A stretch of 64,000 nt of DNA from Flavobacteriales bacterium (GTDB taxonomy: Bacteria > Bacteroidota > Bacteroidia > Flavobacteriales_D > Sanyastnellaceae), in assembly GCA_015665315.1 (NCBI GenBank), contig JADFAK010000095.1, positions 1 through 64,000 of the forward strand, written 5' to 3'. A model generated the notes under the pieces. The model saw nothing but the letters and a program-made list of their open reading frames with translations. It ran no database searches and was not told the DNA's origin. The translations under genes were made by a program, and so were the position numbers. Of the stretch, positions 3,927 through 32,744 are shown one piece after another. Each line of letters opens with the position of its first letter. Positions within the stretch are counted from its first letter, which is position 1.

Positions 3927-6231
3927 AATTTAATGATTTAGTTTCTAATTTTTCCTCCTTAGCAAAAACCGAATTCAACGGTCTTCTAAAGGACTTTTTT
4001 GGTGGCTTCGCCCTGCTCATCTTTAATATGAATAGTGGCTTTCGGTCAGTAATTCCAAAACTAGCAACCACCAAATTGTAGTATTCTTTAAGAACGGTTC
4101 GTTGCTGAGCAGTGAAGCTCCCTTTTTCCTTTCGCGACCTGTAATAAAGGAAGAGCGGAGCACTAACTGGATGAATTGAAATATCTTCTAGAGTAGCCTC
4201 CAACCAAAATCGTTGCATATCTTTTCCTGCAGAAATGTAATTCTCTAAATCGTCGATTGGAGCCGAGATAAGAGCAAGGGCTGAAGTTGCTCGAAATGTT
4301 CTTTTAGTTAAATCTTCTAATTTTTTCCCATAACCCTCGCCTAAATCTCTTAATTCAGCAATCATTCTGGGATCGCGTGCAACCTCCAGTCCTGCACGTT
4401 CTGCCGCCGTCAGATCGACGGTTTCAAGGTCAATTCCGTCTCCTAAATCTTGGGCTTCCGCTGGAGTCCATCTCATTTCACGAACGAAATCTGCATGTCC
4501 TTGCTCGTGTAATGTCCTTATCCTTTCACATGAAGCAGACTTTTCACCAATCGCCAGAATTAATTTAACATCTGATATGATATGTAAATTTTCAGATCTA
4601 AAATTGTTCAATAAATTGTCTTCAAGTACAATCCTATCACCTAGATTCCGATTGGTAGTTCTAATCTCGATGGCGCTCGAAAGTGGGTCAGTCCTCAATA
4701 TTGAGCTCGCTTTAGTAAATGTAACAACTGCCACAACATTATGCCCACGCACATCCCCTAACCACCTTACTTTGGTCGAATAGCCCAATGTCTCTGCTTT
4801 CAATTTAACATTCTCAATTGCCGCGCCGAACGAAAGAAAACTTCCTCGTTTCTCAAAGTCAAGCAAACTCGCACTTCTTGTTTCGTCATGCAATAAATAC
4901 AAGTTGGTCCCTTTATAATACCAAAACCATGGCTGGCAATTCCCCCCTGAAGGAGCCATGGTCCCCGCCTCCACGATGCTCTTAAGGCTATCATCATCAA
5001 TTTCTACCGCACTATCTAGTTCTGGAATACGCAGTTTATTAATAATTGGAGCTATTCGCTTCGGATCCAGCGATCGGCCTTGTATCTTGATTTTACCAAA
5101 TTCCTGAACTACGTTATCAACTGGACAAATTTCATCTTGCCAATCAACGAAATATCGGCCGGACTTAATTGTACCGTCGATGAGAATTTGTTTTGCAACA
5201 CCAACTGTCACCCCAGAACCAGCAAAAACATCTGATGCCAATTGGGGCCATGTAGACAAGCTTTGACCCACTTCAATCATAGATGCCTTTAGCCTAGCAC
5301 TCATATCATTTGGCTGCAGAATCGGCAGGATATACGGTATTTTTTCTTCATTAGATTCTAGATTCTCAACAAGACTGAGGTCCAAATGATCTAAGAAGCC
5401 ATGAAAAATGGCTCTTTCTGGTTCCTTGTCATACCGTTCCACGTCTAAAACTCCTGCATCACTTGTGCTCATTAGGAGAGGAATGCCCATTGATTGAGCC
5501 CTCAGGCGTAGTTTAATTTTAATGTCCAGGCTATCACATTCATCGATAAGCAGATCGACCATCCCGTTTTCCTGTAATATTCTATCCAAATTTTCCTCTT
5601 TGGCTCCTTCTGTCCATAGGGATATTTTTAGAAACGGATCCAATTCAGCAATTTTTCTAGCCGTTTTTATGGCTTTACTGAGCCCCAAGTCTTTTATCCC
5701 AGCATCAATTCTATTTAGATTAGTTAGTTCAATCTCATCATAATCGACTAGCCGCAGTTCGCCACAAACTCTTTCCATTGCAAGTAGAAAAGCAATGCTA
5801 CTACCCACCGACAACCCAATAACCCCCACCTTCTTAGTCGCGAGAATTTCCCGCTCTTTTGGGGTGATTTTGTACATATTTCGATTGGTACGAGACTCCA
5901 CAAACTCCTCTTCATCGAGGATGTGAACGACATTGTGGTTCCACGGGTAGTATACCCAAACTCCATATTCTTCTATTGGCGTAGCACCAAGATGTTCTGT
6001 AACTTTCTGATGGAGTGCTGTTTCAGCAAGTTTTATGGATGGATTCCGCAATTTAACCAACTCTTGGAGCTGGCCTTTTATCTCATCGAAGACCTCTATT
6101 TTGGGATCCTCTTCGAATAATTTCGTGAATTTCTTGCGATCGGATTCTGCGCTCAATCGAAAGAATAGCGGAGTAATTACGTCATTTTTGACATAGGTCT
6201 TGCTCCTGATAATGCTAGTTAGGTTCGTCAT
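3916..6231 (-). CDS. ThiF/E1-like adenylyltransferase fused to nitroreductase (Rv1355c/MoeY-like)
   Basis: The protein has 771 residues when started at ATG 6231; a TTG at 6261 would add ten. The N-terminal 125 residues are family-specific. A Rossmann ThiF/E1 domain follows at about 130-360, with the nucleotide loop GLSVGSS (139-145), NLNR (171-174), LSKA (184-187) and an acidic IDECDS (229-234). These match the ATP/Mg-binding residues of MoeB/ThiF/MccB. The CxxC zinc pairs and an obvious catalytic cysteine are absent, so adenylation without a thioester step is plausible. A nitroreductase-like FMN domain occupies about 410-740, starting with APSGGNCQPW (426-435). The architecture matches the family named after M. 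tuberculosis Rv1355c (annotated moeY), whose reaction is unknown to me. It is the first gene of a four-gene leftward operon with two kinases. Confidence 0.85.
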   Translation of the reverse strand: MTNLTSIIRSKTYVKNDVITPLFFRLSAESDRKKFTKLFEEDPKIEVFDEIKGQLQELVKLRNPSIKLAETALHQKVTEHLGATPIEEYGVWVYYPWNHNVVHILDEEEFVESRTNRNMYKITPKEREILATKKVGVIGLSVGSSIAFLLAMERVCGELRLVDYDEIELTNLNRIDAGIKDLGLSKAIKTARKIAELDPFLKISLWTEGAKEENLDRILQENGMVDLLIDECDSLDIKIKLRLRAQSMGIPLLMSTSDAGVLDVERYDKEPERAIFHGFLDHLDLSLVENLESNEEKIPYILPILQPNDMSARLKASMIEVGQSLSTWPQLASDVFAGSGVTVGVAKQILIDGTIKSGRYFVDWQDEICPVDNVVQEFGKIKIQGRSLDPKRIAPIINKLRIPELDSAVEIDDDSLKSIVEAGTMAPSGGNCQPWFWYYKGTNLYLLHDETRSASLLDFEKRGSFLSFGAAIENVKLKAETLGYSTKVRWLGDVRGHNVVAVVTFTKASSILRTDPLSSAIEIRTTNRNLGDRIVLEDNLLNNFRSENLHIISDVKLILAIGEKSASCERIRTLHEQGHADFVREMRWTPAEAQDLGDGIDLETVDLTAAERAGLEVARDPRMIAELRDLGEGYGKKLEDLTKRTFRATSALALISAPIDDLENYISAGKDMQRFWLEATLEDISIHPVSAPLFLYYRSRKEKGSFTAQQRTVLKEYYNLVVASFGITDRKPLFILKMSRAKPPKKSFRRPLNSVFAKEEKLETKSLNFGS

Positions 6232-28512: not shown

Positions 28513-28543
28513 TTGGGAATGGTAGATAATTCGTGTTACTTTG
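28513..28543 (+). promoter_or_regulatory. Promoter for GGGP synthase gene
   Basis: TTG at 28513-28515 and TTACTTTG at 28536-28543 are separated by 20 bp, matching the bacteroidetal -33/-7 layout with one mismatch in the -7. The element lies within the extended reading frame upstream of 28548 and ends 4 bp before GTG 28548, which supports that later start. Confidence 0.5.
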
Positions 28544-28547
28544 CAGT

Positions 28548-29291
28548 GTGAAGGTATTCGATCATATACAATCAATAGCAAGCTCAGGGAAGAAAGGCTT
28601 GGCGGTTCTGTTGGATCCTGATAAATTGGTATCCAAGTCGAAACGCGATCGCCTGTTGAACCTGATCAACGCCAGCCCAGTAGATTTGGTTCTCGTAGGT
28701 GGTAGCTTGATTGTTGAAGACCATTTCGAGACCATCACACGCGCCATTAAGGACGCCTGTAGCAAGCCTTTAGTATTATTCCCAGGAAGCGCCACGCAAG
28801 TTACTCAGAACGTTGACGCAGTTCTATTCCTATCCCTGATCAGTGGTCGAAATGCAGATTTATTGATCGGTCAGCACGTAATCGCAGCTCCCACCATCAA
28901 ACGATTGGGACTAGAACCTATCAGCACGGGATATATGCTCGTAGACTGCGGCAAACCGACAACAGCGAGTTACATAAGTGGCACATTGCCAATTCCATAT
29001 GACAAACCCGAAATCGCTGGGGTAACGGCGATGGCTGGTGAAATGCTTGGCAACAAAATAATTTACCTCGACGGCGGGAGCGGTGCCTCGAGACCTATTT
29101 CTCAGGCTATGATTGGCGCTACGCGCAAATGTGTGAACAGTCCTATTGTCGTTGGTGGAGGAATTCAAAACGAGAAAGATGCCCGCAACGCATGGACAGC
29201 AGGTGCAGATTTTATCGTTATCGGCACGGCGATCGAAGAAAATCCAGACCTACTGTTTGACATCTGCGCCGCAAAGCAAGCCTTCGCCTAA
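28548..29291 (+). CDS. Geranylgeranylglyceryl/heptaprenylglyceryl phosphate synthase (PcrB/GGGPS type)
   Basis: The enzyme joins sn-glycerol-1-phosphate to a polyprenyl diphosphate, forming an ether lipid precursor. The 247-residue TIM barrel shows LAVLLDPDK near the N-terminus, the phosphate-binding FPGSATQ segment, GTLPIPYDKPEIA, YLDGGSGA and the terminal VVGGGIQNEKDARNA...IVIGTAIEENP. Bacteroidetes are known to carry such enzymes, unlike most other bacteria. I preferred GTG 28548 over GTG 28533 because the promoter -7 lies between them. The stop overlaps the convergent TonB receptor gene by 4 bp. Confidence 0.92.
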   Translation: MKVFDHIQSIASSGKKGLAVLLDPDKLVSKSKRDRLLNLINASPVDLVLVGGSLIVEDHFETITRAIKDACSKPLVLFPGSATQVTQNVDAVLFLSLISGRNADLLIGQHVIAAPTIKRLGLEPISTGYMLVDCGKPTTASYISGTLPIPYDKPEIAGVTAMAGEMLGNKIIYLDGGSGASRPISQAMIGATRKCVNSPIVVGGGIQNEKDARNAWTAGADFIVIGTAIEENPDLLFDICAAKQAFA

Positions 29292-31762
29292 AACTCCATT
29301 GTCATATTGAGCAAGAAATTGGTCCCCGCCTGAGGATAGTAAAAATTCTCTGTGATGGTCTCACCAACAACGTAGCTGTATGTGTATCCATTGGACGAAT
29401 ACACCTCATTGAGCACATTATTCACCAATAAATTCAAGGTCAATTTCTTGAAGCAGCAATTCTTCACCACATAAGTCAGGCGTGCATCGCTCACGAAGTA
29501 GGCATCTAGTTTCCGATCTTCATTTGTCGTATTGTCAAGATATTGCTTACCCACATATTTTGACGTCCAACCAATGCTCACCTCCTGGAATTCTGAGTCT
29601 AGCAATTTGTAAGATAATTGACCTGCGGCTATTGTGCTAGGACTAAACGCAATATCAGTCTCAGCAAATTCTGTTGTAATTACGTCATAACCAGATGTGT
29701 AATCATAAAGGACCTGATTGAAATTCTCTATTTTGTTTTCCGAGAAGGTAGCATTGACCCCAAAAGTCAATCTTTCCATTGGCATCCAAGCGACTTCGAT
29801 CTCTACACCCCTGCGATGGCTTTTATCGACGTTCTGACGAATAGGATTACCGACATCGTTCAATTCGCCTGTCAAGACCAATTGATCCTTGTACTCCATC
29901 GCGTATAAATTGGCTCCTAGAAACAATTTCTCCGACTTGCGCTGGAAACCCAACTCCACGTCTTGCATAGATTCGGGCTTCGCGCCGCCCGCAACTCCAT
30001 CGATATAGTCATTTCTTGTCGGCTCTCGATTTCCAACGGCATAGGAGACATAAATCCTACTCTTGCCCATTTTATAGTTGAAACCACCCTTGGGATTCAC
30101 AAAAGCCAAATGCTCATCCACGCCCACCTCTTGTCTATCGCTATCTAGGCCCGACACAGTGTAATCCACGGTTCGGTATTGCACGTCGACAAAAGCTTTT
30201 AAATTCTTGATCAAAGCATAATCGACCCGTGCGTACACGTTGAAATCGTTCTTCTGAGCTTTGTTCAGGTAATACGCATCACCAATATCCGTCCCGTTGG
30301 CAAACTCCATCCAGGTGAGTTCGCCATAGTGATTGCCGTAATACTCATTGTAGGCACCTCCCACGACAACATTCAATTTTTGCTTGTTCCAATTCAAACT
30401 CCAGGTTCCACCAAATAAATCATTCTGCAGCCACCTTCTTCGAATCAAATCGGTCGACTCAATGATTTGTCCGCCAACGGTCAATGGAAGAATTCCATAA
30501 TCTTCAAAATCTTCTCCTGCCTTGAATTGCTCATAAAATCCGCGGCCATAAGTATAGTGACCAGCTACATTCAATTTCACATTTGAGCGTATGTACCACC
30601 CCGCATGCAATTGCACATGATCCTGCGCGTAATCATCTACTTGGTCACGGTACTCGTAGAAGTTATACGTCCGACCCGAATTCAGCAAGTTCTCGGTTTG
30701 AGACTCCGAAAGGCCATTGTTTGCCGCATGGACCAACATAGCTTCTTCATCATTGTTCAGTCTGCTTTCTGGCGTTCCATACCAGCTTTGGTAAGTACGC
30801 TCTCTTCCGCCGAATACAATCGCTTTGACCGAAAACGGTCCATTGTTCCAGTTGGCTTGGGTGTAATAGGAGAACAGATTTGACTCTGCGCGATCGATGT
30901 AGCCATCTGATGAAATTCGCGAAAGGCGTGCCTCGACCGACCAGCCGTTAATTTCACCTGATCCCACCGCAACACTATTTTTCCATGTATTGAAAGAACC
31001 GTATGTATTACTCACCTCGGCAAAGGGTTCGAGTTTCAAGTCATTGGTTTCCACTTTTACCGAACCACCAAAAGCGCCAGCACCATTGCTCGATGTGCCC
31101 ACCCCGCGTTGGATCTGAATGGATGATGCACTGCTTGCAAGGTCTGGAGTATTTACCCAATACACATTTTGTGACTCCGCATCATTCAATGGAATACCAT
31201 TGATAGTGACATTGATTCGAGATGCGTCGGAACCGCGAATTCTCAATCCTGTATAGCCCACTCCTGCACCGGCGTCGGAAGTGACCACCATGGAAGGTGT
31301 AAACCGTAACAGGTAAGGCATATCTTGGGCATTGTTGAACTTCTCAATATCTGACTTCAAAACGTTCTTGTGGGCCACCGGCGTTTCCGCATTTGCCCTT
31401 GTGGCTTCAATAAAAGCAGGTTCATAAAGTAAGAGTGGAATTGCTTCAAGCGGCACTTGATCTCCTGCCAACGCTATATCATAAACCACGTCCTCTCCTT
31501 CCACTGTGACTAGGCATTTGCGCTCGCTATACCCCAATGCTCCTACCAGCAAATAGTGCTCTCCGGTAGGCATTCCCAAGAAAGTATACATTCCCTGAAT
31601 ATTGGTTACAGTTCCTCTTTGGGTGCCTTCGATGCCAATTTGCACACCGATTATAGGCTCTTGGGTTATTGCATCTACGACAGTGCCGCTAATGGTAAAT
31701 TGGGCAATTGTGGGCAGCGACAACATCATTAGACATAGCGCCAAAAATCTTGAAATTCTCAT
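29288..31762 (-). CDS. TonB-dependent receptor, probable thiamin(-precursor) transporter
   Basis: The 824-residue protein has a signal peptide (about 1-20), a carboxypeptidase-like domain (21-100, with GTVVDAITQEPIIGVQIGI), a plug domain (about 125-240, with LRIRGSDASRINVTINGIP) and a barrel of 22 or so strands ending in a terminal phenylalanine (LLNMTMEF). A TPP riboswitch precedes it on the same strand. Genes so controlled are commonly for thiamin synthesis or uptake, so this receptor probably imports thiamin or a derivative. No other thiamin gene is within the window. Confidence 0.9.
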   Translation of the reverse strand: MRISRFLALCLMMLSLPTIAQFTISGTVVDAITQEPIIGVQIGIEGTQRGTVTNIQGMYTFLGMPTGEHYLLVGALGYSERKCLVTVEGEDVVYDIALAGDQVPLEAIPLLLYEPAFIEATRANAETPVAHKNVLKSDIEKFNNAQDMPYLLRFTPSMVVTSDAGAGVGYTGLRIRGSDASRINVTINGIPLNDAESQNVYWVNTPDLASSASSIQIQRGVGTSSNGAGAFGGSVKVETNDLKLEPFAEVSNTYGSFNTWKNSVAVGSGEINGWSVEARLSRISSDGYIDRAESNLFSYYTQANWNNGPFSVKAIVFGGRERTYQSWYGTPESRLNNDEEAMLVHAANNGLSESQTENLLNSGRTYNFYEYRDQVDDYAQDHVQLHAGWYIRSNVKLNVAGHYTYGRGFYEQFKAGEDFEDYGILPLTVGGQIIESTDLIRRRWLQNDLFGGTWSLNWNKQKLNVVVGGAYNEYYGNHYGELTWMEFANGTDIGDAYYLNKAQKNDFNVYARVDYALIKNLKAFVDVQYRTVDYTVSGLDSDRQEVGVDEHLAFVNPKGGFNYKMGKSRIYVSYAVGNREPTRNDYIDGVAGGAKPESMQDVELGFQRKSEKLFLGANLYAMEYKDQLVLTGELNDVGNPIRQNVDKSHRRGVEIEVAWMPMERLTFGVNATFSENKIENFNQVLYDYTSGYDVITTEFAETDIAFSPSTIAAGQLSYKLLDSEFQEVSIGWTSKYVGKQYLDNTTNEDRKLDAYFVSDARLTYVVKNCCFKKLTLNLLVNNVLNEVYSSNGYTYSYVVGETITENFYYPQAGTNFLLNMTMEF

Positions 31763-31805
31763 GACAATAATTTACCCTTGCGCGTTTTGGTTGAGCACAA
31801 GGAGG

Positions 31806-31885
31806 TTCATACTTCCTACCCGGCATTATCCGGTCAGGTTCAAAGGGTCTGATCTCAGCCCGTACAGTTGGGCACCCCTGTGGTT
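31806..31885 (-). promoter_or_regulatory. TPP (THI-box) riboswitch
   Basis: On the minus strand the conserved TPP elements appear in order: GGGGTGCC (31878-31871), GGCTGAGA containing CTGAGA (31858-31853), ACCCTTTGAACCTGA (31848-31834), and GGATAATGCC (31831-31822) followed by GGGTAGGAAG. It lies 44-124 bp upstream of the receptor ATG, so binding of TPP would lower receptor expression. Confidence 0.95.
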
Positions 31886-31932
31886 CATTGATGGAGGTCT
31901 ATGCTTCCACCAATGCTCCTATTGAGACATGG

Positions 31933-31940
31933 CAAAATTA
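31933..31940 (-). promoter_or_regulatory. -7 element (TAATTTTG) upstream of the riboswitch
   Basis: On the minus strand TAATTTTG fits TAnnTTTG and lies 48 bp upstream of the riboswitch 5' end. It is the likely promoter of the receptor transcript, and it is 20 bp from the divergent cysQ element. Confidence 0.5.
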
Positions 31941-31960
31941 GTAAAACATTCTACTTAAGT

Positions 31961-31968
31961 TATCTTTG
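31961..31968 (+). promoter_or_regulatory. -7 element (TATCTTTG) abutting cysQ
   Basis: TATCTTTG ends 5 bp before the ATG at 31974, suggesting a leaderless or near-leaderless transcript, unless ATG 31992 is used. Confidence 0.5.
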
Positions 31969-31973
31969 ACCCC

Positions 31974-32744
31974 ATGAACTATCCTGAAATAATGAAATTG
32001 GCTTTGGCTGCATCATGCGAGGCTGCTGAAGGGATAATTCGCGTGCAAAAAGCGGGCTTTGAAAAGTGGGTAAAATCCGATAAGTCACCTGTTACTGAGG
32101 CCGATTATGAGTCGAATCGCATCCTCATGCAGCACCTCGAACCTTTGAGCTTCCCGATTCTTAGTGAAGAGGAAGAAGACATCGACTACTCAGTGCGAAA
32201 GGACTGGGAAACATTTTGGCTTGTCGATCCACTCGATGGCACCAAGGAATTCATCAAGGGACTTCCAGAATACACTGTTAACATCGCACTTATTCACCAG
32301 GGCGAGCCCGTTTTGGGGGTTATTGCCATTCCCGTCGCCGAGGTGGTGTATTATGGTTATGGTGATCAAGCCTGGAAGGCAAATGTTGTTTCTGGAAAGG
32401 TTGACAACCCACTACCATTGAAACCGCAGCCTGCTGGGAACCTTCTTAAAGTCGCCGCGAGCCGATCACATTTATCGGAAAAGACCTCAACATTTATCGA
32501 AGGTCTTAAAAAGAATGATCGCCAAGTAGAAATTCTGCGGGCCGGAAGTGCCTTGAAGTTTTGTCTAATTGCCGAAGGTGAAGCGCACATTTATCCGCGA
32601 TTTAATCCGTGCATGGAATGGGACACCGCAGCAGGACACGCCATTCTCAAGGCGGTAGGTAAGAATATTATTCAGATGAACAGCGGTGAACAATTGGAGT
32701 ACAATAAAAAGTCATTGTACAGTCCTTCTTTTATCGCTCAATAG
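31974..32744 (+). CDS. cysQ: 3'(2'),5'-bisphosphate nucleotidase
   Basis: CysQ hydrolyses 3'-phosphoadenosine 5'-phosphate to AMP and phosphate, which relieves toxic build-up from sulfate assimilation. The 256-residue protein has the inositol-monophosphatase-family motifs. These are an acidic metal site (ILSEEEEDIDY near 60-69), the signature WLVDPLDGTKEFI (about 82-94), and a C-terminal WDTAAGHAIL. It is probably cytosolic. Its end overlaps the convergent rsgA gene by 7 bp. Confidence 0.93.
   Translation: MNYPEIMKLALAASCEAAEGIIRVQKAGFEKWVKSDKSPVTEADYESNRILMQHLEPLSFPILSEEEEDIDYSVRKDWETFWLVDPLDGTKEFIKGLPEYTVNIALIHQGEPVLGVIAIPVAEVVYYGYGDQAWKANVVSGKVDNPLPLKPQPAGNLLKVAASRSHLSEKTSTFIEGLKKNDRQVEILRAGSALKFCLIAEGEAHIYPRFNPCMEWDTAAGHAILKAVGKNIIQMNSGEQLEYNKKSLYSPSFIAQ

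Follow-up and report, generated by a model that had tools for sequence, protein, structure and literature searches.

The locus described here raises a simple question: what does its TonB-dependent receptor bring into the cell, and what governs its synthesis? The stretch analysed (the window) comprises 64,000 nucleotides of a Flavobacteriales bacterium from the family Sanyastnellaceae (contig JADFAK010000095.1 of assembly GCA_015665315.1, positions 1 to 64,000, forward strand). On its minus strand a receptor gene (29288..31762) follows what appeared to be a riboswitch for thiamin pyrophosphate (TPP). Our reading is that a TPP-sensing leader controls a receptor that imports thiamin into an auxotroph, an explanation to which, taken as a whole, we assign a probability of roughly 0.85.

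A TPP aptamer ahead of a TonB-dependent receptor

The original prediction, made from the letters of the sequence, recognised the TPP-box motifs in order on the minus strand, followed by the receptor, and proposed a covariance-model search as a check. The search bore this out. The segment from 31889 to 31796 (minus strand) matches the Rfam TPP family RF00059 over the full model (positions 1–105) with 56.1 bits and E 2.7e-8 (cmscan), against a gathering score of 54.3. At the gathering threshold it is the only Rfam match in the window, and in the complete assembly (4.6 Mb in 219 contigs, 99% complete) it is the sole RF00059 match at E <= 10. In the alignment the P2–P5 core is intact, and the aptamer ends 33 nt upstream of the receptor start codon at 31762. 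As a matter of covariance the riboswitch call is confirmed; from it we infer TPP binding and a response of expression.

The open reading frame (ORF), its domains and the aptamers of its relatives together define the 824 aa product as a predicted thiamin receptor of the OMthi/Omr1 type. Two domains score above cut-off, CarbopepD_reg_2 (residues 24–101) and Plug (125–233). A structure model of modest confidence (predicted local distance difference test score, pLDDT, 66.6) displays barrel-like strands and models the plug poorly; both the plug and the C-terminal beta barrel of a TonB-dependent receptor are found, the latter from this modest-confidence model. The feature that marks the OMthi/Omr1 type, an upstream TPP riboswitch shared by the receptor and its relatives, is likewise present, and the receptor gains a firm substrate class.

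The arrangement is conserved well beyond the window. Among 81 genomes of the family, 59 contain an RF00059 match at E <= 0.01 (above the gathering score in two), and the receptor was found in 73, including 44 of the 46 genomes of good quality. Thirty family riboswitch loci were fetched, and all but one, a thiM-thiE-thiD-tenA operon in genome G007, lead into the receptor gene. A covariance model built from 22 family aptamers (R1) scores the window aptamer at 82.5 bits and detects an aptamer in all 30 family receptor loci fetched. It also recovers aptamers in three genomes without an RF00059 match at E <= 0.01 (G011, G015, where the match is cut at the 5′ end, and G030), none of which contributed to its training. 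The aptamer is also retained in G006, a relative from the same genus.

Outside the family we took the best 80 of 588 candidate receptor-relative loci, with receptors of 41–53% identity (the named loci). R1 finds an upstream aptamer in 78 of them, strong (E <= 1e-6) in 66 and weaker in 12; the same search returned none upstream of the receptors of L144 and L151. Because 78 of the 80 named receptors are preceded by such an aptamer, this receptor type is, judged by sequence comparison, linked to TPP sensing generally across Bacteroidota; by the same token the core arrangement is already of a known kind. The original prediction had gone further and regarded the riboswitch as direct evidence for thiamin-linked transport. 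The link has been strengthened by the family and named loci, whereas "direct evidence" is too strong: transport is predicted, and the cargo could be thiamin or a phosphate ester of it.

Three individual loci may be recorded here. In L115 two TPP aptamers apparently stand in tandem before the receptor (5692–5865), a full match at 5692–5789 being followed by a partial one at 5837–5865 that continues aptamer-like. A sequence titled Rickettsiales (L117, PBTY01000009.1) carries a receptor and permease that group with those of Bacteroidota, and is probably mislabelled or from a mixed assembly. In a family genome (G016:C88:28806-31498) the receptor gene is in two pieces with one internal TAG, which represents either a broken gene or an assembly error.

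Thiamin supply and the cargo of the receptor

ThiC is absent from all 81 family genomes (the control search found it in 13 of 14). Thiamin pyrophosphokinase (TPK) was not found above cut-off in any of them with either of two models, the first of which does detect TPK within the class (29 of 159 genomes); nor was ThiK, with a model that is narrow, since only one control genome passes its cut-off. ThiE (PF02581) exceeds its cut-off in two family genomes, convincingly only in G007, and has no match in the genome to which the window belongs. ThiL, in contrast, scores above cut-off in 77 of the 81 (in the window's own genome at C4:60552-61541, 305.6 against 184.15 bits). The surroundings of ThiL were clustered for 20 family stretches, and a reading of each protein in the stretch from the window's own genome (L089) revealed no recognisable transporter. 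Given that three of these enzymes were found in no family genome above cut-off and ThiE convincingly in one, and that ThiL is nevertheless kept, the family is predicted to be auxotrophic for thiamin and to finish TPP by way of ThiL, the step to thiamin monophosphate (TMP) being unexplained. It seems to rely on an external supply of thiamin and to have a single regulated entry gene for it, which is of use for culturing its members and for the ecology of vitamin B1 cross-feeding.

G007 is otherwise like its kin. Its thiM-thiE-thiD-tenA salvage operon (L036, G007:C106) stands behind a TPP riboswitch of its own (69.8 bits) and may have arrived by transfer or by contamination.

The receptor of such an auxotroph would carry thiamin, or a phosphate ester of it, across the outer membrane. 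Since the family keeps ThiL yet has no known enzyme for forming TMP, whether from thiamin or from its precursors, the receptor might chiefly import TMP (or TPP) instead of thiamin, and the counts for ThiL, TPK, ThiK and ThiE just given all speak for this. We nevertheless consider it unlikely: with PF04973 as the only carrier family searched, nothing came to light that would take phosphorylated thiamin across the inner membrane, and the existence of a permease of the PnuC/PnuT type together with a candidate kinase makes thiamin itself the simpler cargo.

The permease (PF04973) is encoded in 78 of the 81 family genomes; in the window's own genome its gene is split across the ends of contigs C180 and C177. 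In 16 of 19 family genomes examined by stretch (20 stretches, two from the window's own genome) it is adjoined by a gene for a NadR-like AAA_28 kinase (C177:237-749 in the window's own genome). Of the 80 named loci, 33 contain the permease and 35 the kinase, 29 of them having the two together; six contain TPK. In all 35 the kinase gene lies upstream on the receptor's strand. Counted by eye, no more than 700 nt separate it from the receptor ORF in 29; the other six, from Flavobacteriaceae, have it further off, with two genes between in those looked at. In a Flavobacteriales metagenome-assembled genome (L113) the order is TPP riboswitch (64.6 bits), a Thiamine_BP-like protein (29.4 bits against a cut-off of 24.9), permease, kinase (L113:5302-5820), a further TPP riboswitch (46.5 bits, short of the gathering score) and receptor; in Algibacter pectinivorans (L148) thiC and thiG come after the permease, kinase and receptor genes. 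Thiamine_BP-like genes occur beside the permease in five of the 20 family stretches and in six of the 80 named loci. In a tree of 52 permeases, rooted at its midpoint only, 16 family permeases form a main group that clusters with TPP-linked ones from Crocinitomicaceae, Cryomorphaceae and L113 (support 100/99), with E. coli PnuC on the other side; two family permeases (L060 and L061) are placed elsewhere. The permease motif WxxWxxxN/D failed to separate permease types.

The kinase has the residues of an active enzyme: GPE..GK, D73, D112, R121 and R127 are invariant in 14 sequences. Its structure model (pLDDT 93.1) finds its closest solved folds in NadR, a resemblance that is the chief reason to favour nicotinamide riboside as substrate. 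Linkage to TPP-riboswitch receptors, the L113 operon and the Thiamine_BP-like genes argue for thiamin. Our first reading of the PF04973 proteins, as a nicotinamide riboside system, was based on the NadR-like kinase that follows them, and was weakened, though not overturned, by these same three observations. Against a thiamin kinase stand also the three of the six loci with TPK that carry the NadR-like gene as well, and the failure of the WxxWxxxN/D motif to tell permease types apart. A literature search of limited scope found no NadR-type thiamin kinase. Its genomic associations make the protein a candidate to fill the thiamin kinase gap, and we would propose, tentatively and with somewhat more doubt than confidence, a salvage route in many Bacteroidota, this family among them, in which a riboswitch-controlled receptor and a PnuT-type permease deliver thiamin to a NadR-like AAA_28 kinase, which would form TMP in place of TPK or ThiK and leave ThiL to complete TPP. 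For genomes that keep ThiL and lack both TPK and ThiK, the identity of the enzyme acting on salvaged thiamin thereby becomes testable.

The leader and its possible action

The TAnnTTTG element that was said to precede the riboswitch is present (TAATTTTG, 31933..31940, minus strand) and is the predicted box of the receptor promoter. A second match (TATCTTTG, 31961..31968, plus strand), just before the start of the divergent cysQ gene at 31974, is the predicted box of the cysQ promoter; the two boxes are 20 bp apart, as originally described. Both are pattern matches, and by itself the pattern is uninformative in the window (45 matches, 47.8 expected). Its position is another matter: 20 of 29 family leaders have it within 60 nt on the 5′ side of the aptamer (shuffle mean 1.1), as do 52 of 66 other leaders (shuffle mean 4.2). 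In most motif-bearing relatives it ends a few nucleotides from the aptamer, hence their transcripts probably begin at the aptamer. The window box lies 43 nt upstream of the aptamer, more distant than in nearly all relatives. Between box and aptamer the window has an extra hairpin-forming stretch of leader (31889-31940, minus strand) not seen in most relatives.

Three elements of the minus strand would make up the switch: a segment of the aptamer 5′ strand (CACAGGGG, 31875..31882), its proposed anti-aptamer partner (CUCCUUGUG, 31796..31804) and a competing hairpin (CCUUGUGC/GCGCAAGG, 31776..31802; local fold −11.8 kcal/mol), which shares bases with the partner arm and ends 13 nt before the start codon. 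When TPP is high, the ligand would bind the 5′ leader of the receptor mRNA and the aptamer would retain its CACAGGGG strand, freeing the downstream strand to form the hairpin near the start codon and keeping receptor synthesis low. When TPP is low, the aptamer would open, its 5′ strand would pair with CUCCUUGUG, the hairpin would be lost and the receptor would be made.

Evidence for the pairing comes from a comparison of 95 leaders (29 family, 66 named; 62 after dereplication). Throughout, a C-rich strand, mostly ∼16–38 nt before the start codon, complements the AGGGG of the aptamer 5′ strand, and the complementarity extends from this match into the variable flanks. When partners were permuted among the 62 dereplicated leaders, own pairings beat swapped ones (z −5.8, p 5e-5), as they did for the family alone (p 0.005) and the others alone (p 0.002); one leader of the 95 was not parsed, and four control stretches were not significant. 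With the strand anchored by its C-rich core only (51 of the 62 leaders), pairing of the flanks extends over 2.24 consecutive positions compared with 1.31 for swapped partners (p 2e-4); the 28 leaders whose 5′ flanks are distinct give p 1.2e-3. Positions 1, 2 and 4 each show several kinds of base pair. CCCC is found in 25 of the 62 leaders (shuffle mean 11.0, maximum 17). The same permutation test gave p 0.019 for seven further receptors and z −2.3 (p 0.018, n = 21) for riboswitches before other genes; 28 of the 30 loci behind these two results were usable, and their first ORFs were picked mechanically, a procedure that often misses short thiS genes. Folded locally, the stretch has a mean z of −1.5, and the C-rich core falls in a hairpin loop in just 22 of the 62; the window stretch folds better than its shuffles (z −3.9). 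The two strands covary across the phylum, suggesting an anti-aptamer switch.

Control at the level of translation is favoured for three reasons. No terminator-like site was found by pattern scan in 31500-32100; passages of PMC5613172 report no significant change in mRNA with thiamin for the transport operons of Bacteroides thetaiotaomicron, that of the receptor OMthi included; and, according to parts of PMC12121620, transcriptional activity was detected in six of 57 TPP riboswitches, Bacteroides not among the active ones. The ligand response, the OFF polarity, translational control and the substrate transported are what we infer.

Several observations weigh against this picture. In the window the RF00059 threshold is exceeded by only 1.8 bits, and three of five P1 pairs are non-standard as aligned. 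The anti-aptamer duplex of the window does not stand out from its shuffles (z −0.85, p 0.20), and a fold containing the helix reaches −48.2 kcal/mol against −57.6 for the best, 9.4 kcal/mol weaker. A first duplex test gave p < 0.05 in 22 of 66 leaders parsed, 29 of the 95 not being parsed, and the p values for leaders may be inflated by kinship because dereplication was by sequence similarity, not by tree. In two thiS-type leaders (L241 and L242) a strand that complements the aptamer 5′ strand over 9–10 bp stops 2 nt short of the start codon, a position that fits OFF polarity poorly; either fold may be the one that blocks ribosomes. A riboswitch that does little in B. thetaiotaomicron would equally fit the unchanged OMthi mRNA, and the OMthi type was assigned to the window receptor by riboswitch linkage.

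The near-threshold score, the weak P1 and the non-significant pairing would also be expected of a degenerate aptamer that no longer regulates, leaving the receptor constantly expressed; the intact P2–P5 core, the high score with the family model and retention of the aptamer in G006 make this improbable. Import of HMP or a thiazole, precursors of thiamin, for salvage, as the G007 operon might suggest, is scarcely credible, given that ThiE, which joins the two halves, is convincing in that one genome of the 81 and was not found in the window's own.

Regulated import of thiamin remains our explanation. A literature search of limited scope found no described TPP expression platform for Bacteroidota, and in passages of PMC5613172 the action of TPP riboswitches in this phylum is called uncertain; their mechanism now becomes a testable point. 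The kinase and the anti-aptamer pairing are the leads worth following.

The neighbouring genes complete the locus. The cysQ gene (31974..32744, plus strand; NCBIfam score 248.6 against a cut-off of 228.8) adjoins the riboswitch in 22 of the 30 family loci fetched. On the other side a geranylgeranylglyceryl phosphate synthase family gene (28533..29291, plus strand) is convergent, so the receptor is alone on its strand as a single-gene unit. The synthase gene neighbours the receptor in the family of the window, and one of the same kind also adjoins the permease-kinase-receptor block in Algibacter (L148:1657-2397), hinting at an old common gene order of synthase and receptor locus.

Comparison with known systems

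The idea of a riboswitch-controlled thiamin receptor is not new: passages of PMC5613172 describe OMthi (BT2390) of B. thetaiotaomicron, which is controlled by a TPP riboswitch and whose role in thiamin uptake was established by deletion phenotypes. Like the window receptor, OMthi is TonB-dependent and has a TPP riboswitch. OMthi, however, accompanies a full thi operon and pnuT-tnr3, whereas the window receptor is the only TPP-riboswitch gene found in its genome, stands beside cysQ and belongs to a genome without detected TPK.

The TPP riboswitches of E. coli thiM and thiC are OFF switches that exert control near the translation start. The leader described here shares their aptamer class and, as proposed, their polarity and point of control; unlike them, it would have an alternative strand that engages the 5′ strand of the aptamer itself, and masking of a Shine-Dalgarno sequence is not claimed.

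Omr1 outer-membrane thiamin receptors were reportedly predicted from TPP regulation by Rodionov and colleagues in 2002. The window receptor is likewise an outer-membrane receptor predicted from TPP regulation, the Omr1 prediction having come from other genomes. The name omr1 is in use in PMC12442306, where a passage marks its specificity as unclear.

For the candidate kinase the closest parallel is the NadR kinase that operates with PnuC (8x7f, 1lw7, 6gyf): fold, P-loop and pairing with a PnuC-family permease are the same. Unlike NadR, the candidate has no adenylyltransferase domain, and its gene lies beside TPP-riboswitch receptors, in one locus under a TPP riboswitch of its own together with a predicted thiamin-binding protein.

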